Position numbers and translations under genes: made by a program
The notes under the pieces: generated by a model
The model's database searches: none
What the model was told of the DNA's origin: nothing
Seen by the model: the letters and a program-made list of their open reading frames with translations, nothing else
Part shown: positions 8,323 to 28,890 of the stretch, piece after piece
Numbering within the stretch: position 1 is the stretch's first letter
How the letters are laid out: each line of letters opens with the position of its first letter
Source of the DNA: Clostridiales bacterium
GTDB lineage: Bacteria; Bacillota; Clostridia; HGM11327
Direction: 5' to 3'
Length of the DNA stretch: 46,098 bases
Assembly (NCBI GenBank): GCA_015056385.1
Contig: SVGI01000004.1
Span: 1-46,098 of the forward strand

Positions 8323-9342
8323 TCAATCGTCGTTACTGTAAAATTTGAGATTTCTGAACTTTGCAGACTCCTCAACAATAGAGCCCAAGCCGTTTGCAAC
8401 ACAATCCAGGGGATTACTTGCAACTATTGATTTTATGCCTGTTTCCTTATAAAGAAGTGTATCAAGATTCTTAAGCATAGCGCCGCCGCCGGAAAGATAT
8501 ATGCCGTTTTCTGCAACGTCTGCAGCAAGCTCCGGGGGAGTAAGCTCAAGAGTGTTCTTTACGGAATCAACAATTGTCTGTACCTGCTCGGAAATAGCCT
8601 CTGCGATTTCATCGGAGCTTATTGTAAGGCTGTGGGGAAGGCCGCTTACCTGGTCAAGACCTCTTATAACCATTGTTTCTGCTTTACAGCCTGCGTCTGC
8701 TGATTTCATTGCGCTGCCGATAGTCATTTTAATCTTTTCAGCAGTTCTTTCACCTATAATCATGCTGTATTTTTTCTTAAGGTAGGTGATTATGGCCTCA
8801 TCCATTTTGTCGCCTGCGGCCCTTATACTGCAGCTTACAACAATACCGCCAAGGGACATAACGGCAACCTCTGTTGTACCGCCGCCGATATCAACAATCA
8901 TATTGCCCTGAGGCTCCATAATGTCAAGCCCTGCGCCGATAGCGGCGGCAATAGGCTCCTCAACAAGATATGCGGCGCGTGCACCTGCGTTGATGGCAGC
9001 CTCCTCTACGGCTCTGCTTTCAACCTTTGTAATGCCGTATGGAATACATACGAATATTGTGGGGCGGAGGGGGCCCACCTTTGCCTTTGATTTCTTAACG
9101 AAGTAGGAGAGTATTTCCTCTGTAACCTTGTAGTCTGCTATAACGCCGTCTCTCATAGGCCTTACAGCAACAACGTGGCCGGGAGTTTTACCTACCATGT
9201 TCTTTGCTTCCTCGCCTATGCTTACAAGTGAGCCCTTTGACGTATTGTATGCAACAACAGAGGGTTCTCTTAATATAATTCCTTTTCCTCTCATATAGAT
9301 GAGGATATTAGCTGTACCTAAGTCTATTCCTATAACCTTCAT
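8323..9342 (-). CDS. mreB: Actin-like cell shape protein MreB
   Basis: This 339-residue protein has the complete MreB/actin fold: phosphate 1 GIDLGTANILIY near the N-terminus, phosphate 2 NMIVDIGGGTTEVAV near 145-160, and the adenosine loop ENGIYLSGGGAMLKNLD near 280. REPSVVAYN and VRPMRDGVIADY are also typical. MreB filaments on the inner membrane steer the RodA-PBP2 machinery around the cell. Only one mreB is in this window; Mbl- or MreBH-type paralogues could exist elsewhere. The GAGGG ribosome binding site can pair with an upstream GCCCT in a short hairpin. Confidence 0.97.
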   Translation of the reverse strand: MKVIGIDLGTANILIYMRGKGIILREPSVVAYNTSKGSLVSIGEEAKNMVGKTPGHVVAVRPMRDGVIADYKVTEEILSYFVKKSKAKVGPLRPTIFVCIPYGITKVESRAVEEAAINAGARAAYLVEEPIAAAIGAGLDIMEPQGNMIVDIGGGTTEVAVMSLGGIVVSCSIRAAGDKMDEAIITYLKKKYSMIIGERTAEKIKMTIGSAMKSADAGCKAETMVIRGLDQVSGLPHSLTISSDEIAEAISEQVQTIVDSVKNTLELTPPELAADVAENGIYLSGGGAMLKNLDTLLYKETGIKSIVASNPLDCVANGLGSIVEESAKFRNLKFYSNDD

Positions 9343-9390
9343 ACCTGTATAGCCCTCAATAAGGGCGTACCTCCTTAAACCTGATCAATA

Positions 9391-25647: not shown

Positions 25648-28533
25648 TTATCTTACGCACTTTTTCTTACTTGTGAATAATATAACAGCTATTGCAATTA
25701 TGCTTAAAGCCACGCCTATAATCCAAAGAAGAGGGTAAGCATTATCTCCCGTGATAGGTACTTTAACAGGAACAGGCTTCCACTTTGCATAAATTGTAAT
25801 ATCTCCTGCAGGCATTGTGGTGAATGTGTAAGCCTGGGTAAGCTCTTCGTCTGCATACCAGCCGTCGAAGATATAATCCTCAAGCGCGGGGTCTGCAGGC
25901 TGTGTTACTGCTGTGCCGAAATCCTGCGTGATGGGAGCAACGTTGCTTCCGCCGTTAGCGTTGAAGGTAATTGTGTAGCTGTTAACCTCCCAAAGTGCAT
26001 TAACAGTAAGTCCGTCAATGGGCATAGTTGTAGGAATCTCCTTATCCCAGCCCTTGAATGTATATCCATCCCTTGTGGGGTCAGTGGGTGCTGTTATGCT
26101 TGAGCCGAATGCCTGTGTAATGGGTGCGATAGCCGAGCCGCCGTCTGTATCGAAGGTGATAGTGTAATCGTTGGCCTCCCAAAGCGCCTTAACAGTAAGT
26201 CCGTCAATGGGCATAGTTGAGGGAATCTCCTTATCCCAGCCCTTGAATGTGTAGCCTTCTTTTGTGGGGTCAGCGGGTGCTGTTATGCTTGAGCCGAATG
26301 CCTGTGTAATGGGTGTGATAGCTGAGCCGCCGTCTGTATCGAAGGTGATAGTGTAGTCGTTAACCTCCCAAAGCGCCTTAACAGTAAGTCCGTCAATGGG
26401 CATAGTTGTAGGAATCTCCTTATCCCAGCCCTTGAATGTGTAGCCATCCTTTGTGGGATTGCTGGGTGCTGTTATGCTTGAGCCGAATGCCTGTGTAATA
26501 GGTGCGATAGCCGAGCCGCCGTCTGTATCGAATGTGATAGTGTAATCGTTGGCCTCCCAAAGCGCCTTAACAGTAAGTCCGTCAATGGGCATAGTTGTAG
26601 GAATTTCTTTATCCCAGCCCTTGAAGGTGTAGCCATCCTTTGTGGGGTCAGCGGGTGCTGTTACGCTTGAGCCGAATGCCTGTGTAATGGGTGCGATAGC
26701 CGAGCCGCCGTCTGTATCAAAGGTGATAGTGTAATCGTTAATCTCCCAAAGAGCCTTAACTGTAATTACGCTTCCGGGTATTATTGTGGGGATCTCCTTA
26801 TTCCAGCCTATAAACGTGTAGCCGTCCTTTGTGGGATTGGCGGGAACAGTTACAGCAGTGCCGAGAGTGCCTTCAACAGATGGGATAGCTGTGCCGCCGT
26901 CTGTATCAAATACTATAACGCTTGAAGCAGTGAAATTAGCCGAAGCAGCTCCGTTTCCTAAGAGAATCTTTTTGAGAACGTCCTCCCTTGTAGCGGTACT
27001 GTCAATAAGTAATTCTCTTGCAAGGTATTCATCAATATCCTCTATGCCTGAAACAGTACAATTCACAATGACAATGCCCTTCGTTGAGTTCGTTACGCAT
27101 TCTCCTATAAAATTTGAGCCTATAGGATCTGCATCACCGAGCTTTGTTGTGCCGAGAACCTCACAGCCTATGAATGATTGAACAGCAGGCTTGTTTGTAC
27201 CGCTAAGGGCATTATTTGTATTAACGTATGCCGCAAAGCCGCCAACGGTAGCTCCTGCAGAAGCTGTGATTTTAACGTCTGTTGATGTGTTGAGGAAGGT
27301 ACGGTTCTGGGCAGGATTAAATCCTCCTCTTCCGCCATATCCGTAATAAGTGGCTTCTGCTACAAATCCTCCGTATGTTCCGCCCAAGCCGTTGATTTCG
27401 CCCTGAACAGAGCATGAGTCGAAGCCTTTTATTGAATGGTGAACACCGTCTGTATCATCATACTCGTATTCTGTCATGGTTGCGTTAAGGGCTACGAATC
27501 CGCCAACTGAGGGAGAACCTGACGTAACGTTTATCTTAAGGTCTGTAAGGGAACAGTTTTTTGTAAACATGGAGTCGCCGTTATAATCCAGATTATAAGC
27601 CGTGAATCCTCCCACGTAGCTGTTTGTGCCGGATACGTTCATTGTAATATTGTATCCGTGTACGTTTTCAAAATAGCATACAAATACGGGGTTGTTTGTT
27701 AAATTTTCGGGTGTGGAGTCGCTCATCAATGTACCGGGGAGACAGTAATTCTGAATTGTTTTTGTAGGATCAGAATCGTTCTTTGCAGTGAAAAAGCTTG
27801 CTCTGGCATAGCCTGATACGGGATAAGTATAAGACTGAATCTGGCTGAACATACCGCCAATTTCGCCGCCTACTGCAGTTATTGTTACGTTACGGGCAAT
27901 AATATTTTTGAACTGCGATGTGTTTGCGCCGCCTGCAATAGCGCTTCCGCGACCGTTTATGATAACGTCTTCAACGGTAATGTTTTCAAGCACGTTATCG
28001 TGGAATGTATTACCTACAACAACACCTGTACCTGCTTTGGGATTTTCGATTTTAGCTTTTTTAATTGTGAAATCGTGTATATAAGAACCCTTACGTACAG
28101 AGTCAGCTCCGCCGTGCCCCACACGTCCGAACAAACCTGCTAATTTGCCTCCTGTAAGGTTGTTACCGTTTATATAAAGATTGGAAATTGTATGTCCGTT
28201 TCCATTAAATTCACCTATAAAATTAGCTTCATGGCTGTTGGTCTGTCCTCCGATAGGTGTCCAATGCCTGTTATCAAGGTCGATATCAGCGCATAGCTTT
28301 ATGGTCTTGTTCCAGAAACTTGTGTTAGCCTTTACAAGCTGTGCAAGGCCTGCAAGCTCCTCTGCAGTATGGATTTCGAATATCGTACCCTGTGGGGCAT
28401 CGGATATATACCAGCTTGTGTCTGCAGTGCCGTCCCACACGTCTGCTGTGCCTGCAGATGCAGGTGTTGCCACGTAGGGGAGAAGTGCAATGACTGCAGC
28501 AAGGGCAAGGACTATGGATAAAAGCTTTTTTAT
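25648..28533 (-). CDS. Secreted cell-wall protein with InlB-type B-repeats, AUA start
   Basis: The ORF track starts at an internal GTG (28473), but the open frame continues 20 codons upstream to ATA at 28533-28531. GGAGG lies eight bases before it. The extended N-terminus, (M)KKLLSIVLALAAVIALLPYVATPASAG, is a classic signal peptide, and no ATG, GTG or TTG occurs between it and the in-frame stop. The mature protein (about 961 residues total) has a GLUG/beta-helix-like N-terminal half (HTISNLYINGN, repeated GGF segments). Six InlB/Flg_new repeats of about 63 residues follow, four nearly identical. The C-terminus has VPITGDNA, a membrane helix and KKKCVR, a variant LPXTG sortase signal. It probably acts in adhesion; no catalytic domain was recognised. 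Confidence 0.88.
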   Translation of the reverse strand: MKKLLSIVLALAAVIALLPYVATPASAGTADVWDGTADTSWYISDAPQGTIFEIHTAEELAGLAQLVKANTSFWNKTIKLCADIDLDNRHWTPIGGQTNSHEANFIGEFNGNGHTISNLYINGNNLTGGKLAGLFGRVGHGGADSVRKGSYIHDFTIKKAKIENPKAGTGVVVGNTFHDNVLENITVEDVIINGRGSAIAGGANTSQFKNIIARNVTITAVGGEIGGMFSQIQSYTYPVSGYARASFFTAKNDSDPTKTIQNYCLPGTLMSDSTPENLTNNPVFVCYFENVHGYNITMNVSGTNSYVGGFTAYNLDYNGDSMFTKNCSLTDLKINVTSGSPSVGGFVALNATMTEYEYDDTDGVHHSIKGFDSCSVQGEINGLGGTYGGFVAEATYYGYGGRGGFNPAQNRTFLNTSTDVKITASAGATVGGFAAYVNTNNALSGTNKPAVQSFIGCEVLGTTKLGDADPIGSNFIGECVTNSTKGIVIVNCTVSGIEDIDEYLARELLIDSTATREDVLKKILLGNGAASANFTASSVIVFDTDGGTAIPSVEGTLGTAVTVPANPTKDGYTFIGWNKEIPTIIPGSVITVKALWEINDYTITFDTDGGSAIAPITQAFGSSVTAPADPTKDGYTFKGWDKEIPTTMPIDGLTVKALWEANDYTITFDTDGGSAIAPITQAFGSSITAPSNPTKDGYTFKGWDKEIPTTMPIDGLTVKALWEVNDYTITFDTDGGSAITPITQAFGSSITAPADPTKEGYTFKGWDKEIPSTMPIDGLTVKALWEANDYTITFDTDGGSAIAPITQAFGSSITAPTDPTRDGYTFKGWDKEIPTTMPIDGLTVNALWEVNSYTITFNANGGSNVAPITQDFGTAVTQPADPALEDYIFDGWYADEELTQAYTFTTMPAGDITIYAKWKPVPVKVPITGDNAYPLLWIIGVALSIIAIAVILFTSKKKCVR
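25984..26739 (-). repeat. Four near-identical 189-bp tandem repeats (B-repeats)
   Basis: Four units of exactly 189 bases (63 codons) encode NDYTITFDTDGGSAIAPITQ...VKALWE(A/V). CTTATCCCAGCCCTTGAATG recurs at 26041, 26230 and 26419, with a variant near 26608. Two diverged units flank them. Copy number could vary by recombination. Confidence 0.95.
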
Positions 28534-28746
28534 GAGAAAAACCTCCGCTTTAAGAGTGGTACCGTATATTGCGGTACACGAACGCTATAATATGCGTTCT
28601 GTTATTTGGTGGGTATCATTATAACCTCTCATGAAAAAAACACAGTGTTTTACAACGGAACGTGTGTAAAAATTTTTATTTACTGTTTGAATGAATAGTT
28701 GTAAGCCTTACATCGGTGTACCCGTATGAAAATGTACACCTGCTGA
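28534..28746. other. Upstream region of the surface-protein gene
   Basis: This AT-rich intergenic stretch holds the GGAGG site (28542-28546, minus), a possible -10 TATAAT (28623-28618, minus) without a clear -35, and a short palindrome AACACAGTGTT near 28639. No gene is seen up to the XRE remnant. Confidence 0.4.
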
Positions 28747-28890
28747 GCCTGTTGTCAGCGTGTGTATAGTAATTATGAGCGTGGGGATATAGATATTCCC
28801 ACGACAACCCTTATTAAAATTGCCGATTTCCATAAGGTATCTGTGGATTATCTTTTGGGGCGTACAAACAATTCAAAATTATATAAATAA
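28747..28890 (+). pseudogene. Remnant of an XRE-family HTH regulator (C-terminal end)
   Basis: The plus-strand frame reads ...QRVYSNYERGDIDIPTTTLIKIADFHKVSVDYLLGRTNNSKLYK*, which is the well-known C-terminal half of small XRE/Cro repressors (YSxYExG..IP...L.KIADF..VSVDYLLGRT). A TGA at 28744-28746 interrupts the frame and no start codon or N-terminal helix-turn-helix is present. The ORF track misses it. It is a decayed regulator, likely left from a prophage or integrated element. Confidence 0.8.

Follow-up and report, generated by a model that had tools for sequence, protein, structure and literature searches.

How does translation begin on a large surface-protein gene whose signal peptide is preceded by no canonical start codon? 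This question is raised by a gene on the minus strand of a 46,098-nucleotide stretch of DNA from a Clostridiales bacterium (the window; contig SVGI01000004.1, positions 1 to 46,098), in which the codon at the head of the signal peptide is ATA. The start region contains the following features.

25648..28533, minus strand: surface-protein gene, with a predicted secreted, sortase-anchored product of 961 residues read from ATA (translation; six PF09479 matches; TIGR02543 repeats)
28531..28533, minus strand: putative AUA start codon (GGAGG plus 8 nt; no canonical codon back to the in-frame TAG; aligned with the ATG of a homologue)
28541..28546, minus strand: Shine-Dalgarno sequence (SD) GGAGGT, six bases pairing with the anti-SD
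28585..28587, minus strand: upstream in-frame stop codon TAG
28471..28473, minus strand: first in-frame canonical start, GTG, without an SD and within the signal peptide
28453..28533, minus strand: predicted signal peptide (M/I)KKLLSIVLALAAVIALLPYVATPASA, cleaved before GTADVW (from the sequence, and aligned with the signal peptides of homologues)

The sequence-only reading of this locus had placed a GGAGG exactly eight bases before the ATA, with no ATG, GTG or TTG from there back to the in-frame TAG. Both points hold on the minus strand: GGAGG occupies 28546-28542, the 8-nt spacer TTTTTCTC occupies 28541-28534 and ATA occupies 28533-28531, and there is no ATG, GTG or TTG among the 17 codons that separate the TAG from the ATA (CGT TCG TGT ACC GCA ATA TAC GGT ACC ACT CTT AAA GCG GAG GTT TTT CTC). 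That reading had also described a textbook signal peptide that opens at the ATA, upstream of the first GTG, and would be lost without this start, and we find that it was correct on each count; conserved coding begins at the ATA when the gene is aligned with homologous signal peptides, and the GTG at 28473 lies midway along the signal peptide, which a start there would truncate. Neither this GTG nor the internal GTG at 28440 has an SD. Lying at the SD distance that this genome prefers and lacking a canonical alternative, the AUA is supported as the best candidate for the start of the gene. Two former starts were considered and rejected. Some homologues begin with MNLKK or MKIKK, but an ancestral start two codons upstream of the ATA would correspond to a TTT that lies 2 nt past GGAGG and is too close to it, and the CTC at 28536 differs from AUG by more than one base.

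We asked how often such an arrangement occurs in the source genome, an 84.6% complete draft of 71 contigs that by its look is a MAG. Start codons assigned by a simple coding and SD score in 281 kb comprise 180 ATG, 20 GTG and 9 TTG, and the spacing of SDs of at least five bases in the same 281 kb peaks at 7-8. In 531 kb of the 1.45-Mb genome, containing 373 coding ORFs, we listed every ORF with an SD-backed ATA, ATT, ATC or CTG ahead of its first canonical start, the other flagged ORFs being judged by eye. The surface-protein gene and infC are the only two of the 373 with a clear SD-backed non-canonical start and no SD-backed canonical alternative; nearly all of the other flagged ORFs have an ordinary canonical start, including those for AddA, which has an ATG, and RNase J, which has an in-frame TTG, while mreB and a TrmN6-like gene could be read either way. 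The pattern GGAGG-N8-ATAAARAAR occurs twice in the genome, and the second occurrence, ...ATGATAAAAAAA, has its ATG in the usual position. Among isoleucine codons the genome uses ATA most often (40.8 per thousand). The AUA of the surface-protein gene is more than a chance occurrence. We note separately that mreB (window positions 8325-9384, minus strand) has a strong AAGGAGGT 9 nt ahead of an in-frame ATT (9360), and that its likely ATG (9342) lies 18 bases beyond the ATT with a small hairpin (GCCCT/AGGGC) in between, so that a hairpin may shorten the SD spacing there, or else the gene may start at AUU. We also note that TAG is a rare stop codon in this genome sample (7 of 373 ORFs).

Where the ATA came from is suggested by homologues. 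A search with the N-terminal domain of the surface protein against 391 genomes of the class returned matches in 19 other genomes, some of which include the signal peptide. In one homologue (L142; MRRVLSILMAVVMVLGTMGFTAFA..., SD AGGAGGG) an ATG aligns exactly with the ATA, and in four others the start codon, ATG in L143, L146 and L149 and GTG in L147, lies two to four codons upstream of the position aligned with the ATA. Because ATG or GTG is the start codon in homologues that match both the signal peptide and the N-terminal domain, the ATA looks derived, and the suggestion that it arose by a change from ATG, which takes a single transition, is likely to be right for this lineage. The weak codon is not conserved in these distant relatives, so long-term selection for AUA cannot be shown; their ATG and GTG codons weaken the claim of a long-selected regulatory start but not that of initiation at AUA. 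We found no close strain among the relatives, the contigs of the genome, the 391 class genomes (searched with the N-terminal domain) or viral contigs, a search of the 391 genomes for the start-region pattern with the third base of the start codon left open returned none, and the genomes searched included no other member of the genus.

The genes for IF3 (infC) are classical non-AUG starters. In the source genome infC (L087 1480, contig C47) has an apparent ATA start, and ATA-GAC is conserved at the expected start in this genome and in two family mates (G001 and G002), where the region reads GGAGGTGATAACC-ATA with the same SD spacing of 8 nt as in the surface-protein gene. In most infC genes that we read in the class, a GGAGG-type SD is followed by ATT, ATC or ATA where the start is expected. 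The SD of the source-genome infC is only moderate (AAAGGA), so that its AUA start is itself a prediction; nevertheless, the presence of ATA at infC in all three genomes suggests that AUA initiation is probably already in use in this lineage. In Staphylococcus aureus, ribosomes arrested by retapamulin are found at the AUA codons of infC and ccpN, NCTC 8325-lineage strains have an AUA start in citZ, and AUA reporters give about 10% of the output of AUG in poor medium, that of ccpN reaching up to 30% in rich medium (PMC13009471). By analogy with these measured starts, reduced expression is to be expected of the surface-protein gene, as the sequence-only reading had proposed.

The encoded protein bears the features of a sortase-type surface protein. 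Its 961 residues comprise, in order, the signal peptide, an N-terminal domain of about 500 residues with no match in Pfam, repeats of the Flg_new/InlB type, the motif VPITGD, a hydrophobic stretch and the sequence KKKCVR. The Listeria-Bacteroides repeat (Flg_new, PF09479) is matched six times, at 267.8 bits against a curated cut-off of 27, TIGR02543 repeats are matched as well, and the only sequence matches in the PDB are InlB chains. The C-terminus carries the following feature.

25651..25761, minus strand: C-terminal sorting signal, VPITGD followed by a hydrophobic stretch and KKKCVR

The sortase-like tail that had been noticed earlier is therefore a sortase signal, and signal peptide, PxTG motif, hydrophobic stretch and positive tail are all present. 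The genome encodes one PF04203 sortase (contig C45), assigned to class B by a TIGR03064 match above cut-off. The protein is, as judged from its sequence, most likely wall-anchored, and the sortase that anchors it is probably this class B enzyme; perhaps the protein acts as an adhesin. Sortase-type PxTGD tails number five in the genome, one in the surface-protein gene (contig C11), two on C65 and one each on C66 and C56. The C56 gene runs off the end of its contig, and all three complete siblings (two on C65, one on C66) have an ATG directly before the signal peptide. As a side observation, with one class B sortase and at least five PxTGD tails, a single sortase probably serves several large surface proteins in this bacterium.

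Selection on the protein can be read from its repeats. Among four near-identical tandem repeats of 63 residues, divergence is 17-25% at synonymous sites but only 3-6% at nonsynonymous sites (pN/pS of 0.14-0.28, with Fisher p = 7e-5 and 3e-3 in two disjoint repeat pairs), and this low pN/pS indicates that the protein was under selection after the repeats arose. Gene conversion could shift the level of divergence between repeats but not the bias between synonymous and nonsynonymous change. The selection seen in the repeats may, though, predate the ATA. The codon-usage score of the gene lies at the 78th percentile of long ORFs.

On balance, we favor an explanation in which the ancestral canonical start (ATG) of a signal-peptide-bearing surface protein was replaced by ATA in this lineage, giving weak, IF3-sensitive initiation of a protein predicted to be anchored by a class B sortase. 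The initiator fMet-tRNA(CAU) would still initiate at AUA, the ribosome being kept over this codon by a 6-base SD placed at the optimal distance of 8 nt. Since IF3 discriminates against the third-position mismatch at AUA, output would be low, by analogy on the order of 10% of that of AUG, and would increase at low IF3 levels. The first residue would be methionine and would be removed with the signal peptide, so that the mature protein would be unchanged.

It is also possible, if unlikely, that the ATG was lost recently and that this strain in effect no longer expresses the gene, whose ORF is intact only since the mutation is young. Bacteria can often do without particular surface proteins, the starts of homologues and sibling surface genes are canonical, and a decayed remnant of an XRE-type regulator upstream suggests that the neighborhood tolerates decay. 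Such a loss would nonetheless have left a 961-codon frame, SD, signal peptide and sorting signal all intact, and, since in S. aureus an AUA that follows a good SD reached about 10-30% of the AUG level (PMC13009471), an AUA allele need not be silent.

A further alternative is that the ATA is an assembly consensus error or a minority-strain base at one position, the dominant sequence really being ATG. The incompleteness and fragmentation of the draft genome leave room for this, a minor base can enter a consensus from strain mixtures, and a search for an independent assembly found none. We consider this improbable, given that no other start was clearly lost among the 373 ORFs (531 kb), which argues that start-codon errors are rare, and that the 2.9-kb frame around the ATA is free of frameshifts, with the base in question lying outside any long homopolymer.

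Improbable as well is an adaptive version of AUA initiation, in which the codon serves as an IF3-linked volume control. Were this so, the surface protein, by sharing the weak start type of infC, would follow the ratio of ribosomes to IF3, and hence the growth state, in its level. It is very improbable that translation instead begins at the internal GTG at 28473 or 28440 to give a non-exported protein; callers limited to ATG, GTG and TTG would pick the GTG at 28473, but both codons lack an SD and lie within or after the signal peptide, which would strand a sortase-type protein in the cell, and homologues start ahead of the signal peptide. Although phase variation often affects surface proteins, we give almost no credence to a reversible ATG/ATA switch controlling this one, a possibility that the sequence-only reading had raised in calling the change phase-like, as neither the gene nor its leader has a second copy, and thus a recombination partner, in the assembled genome, the leader has no repeat tract able to toggle the start codon, and a point substitution is, to our knowledge, not a known reversible switch.

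Weak initiation at AUA, the explanation we favor, has parallels in other bacteria. Like the surface-protein gene, infC genes with AUU, AUC or AUA starts include cases of an SD-backed AUA, those of the family mates even sharing the 8-nt spacing, but the odd start of infC is conserved and autoregulatory whereas homologues of the surface-protein gene start with AUG or GUG. The ccpN gene of S. aureus and Bacillus subtilis also has an AUA behind a strong SD and is translated at a low level; its AUA is conserved across genera and responsive to the medium (PMC13009471), whereas that of the surface-protein gene is not conserved in distant homologues. The closest parallel is citZ of the S. aureus NCTC 8325 lineage, likewise an ordinary gene without a regulatory role whose AUA is specific to one lineage, although citZ encodes a cytoplasmic enzyme and its start has been seen by ribosome profiling and reporters, with an output of about 10% of that of AUG (PMC13009471), while that of the surface-protein gene is predicted from sequence. 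With PxTG surface proteins that carry the Listeria-Bacteroides repeat the protein shares a signal peptide, tandem PF09479 repeats and a sortase signal, and it differs from them in its own N-terminal domain and its ATA start. AUA starts have thus been described before in other bacteria, and their occurrence in a sortase-type surface protein seems to be a new instance; a limited literature search turned up no bacterial surface protein with an AUA start, though this is weak evidence that none exists. If initiation at this codon is real, the abundance of a surface protein would here be set by a weak start codon, a rare case outside regulatory genes, and display at the surface would be tied to IF3. 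Because callers limited to ATG, GTG and TTG would begin inside the signal peptide and predict such a protein to be non-exported, surface proteins with AUA or AUU starts may go missed in metagenomes.

Lastly, the leader of the gene carries one further feature.

28559..28599, minus strand: two different perfect tandem dyads in the 5' leader, GAACGC-N8-GCGTTC and GTACCG-N7-CGGTAC

These dyads are putative candidates for an operator or for 5' UTR hairpins; the fold z-score of -1.52 is not significant, and the pair has no copy in the other loci compared. The neighbors of the gene encode an alpha-L-arabinofuranosidase-type enzyme, EamA transporters and a MATE transporter. In the interval between the surface-protein gene and the MATE gene (window positions 28770-28890, plus strand) we also find a fragment from the C-terminal region of an XRE-type HTH regulator (YERGDIDIPTTTLIKIADFHKVSVDYLLGRTNNSKLYK), apparently left by a gene that has decayed.
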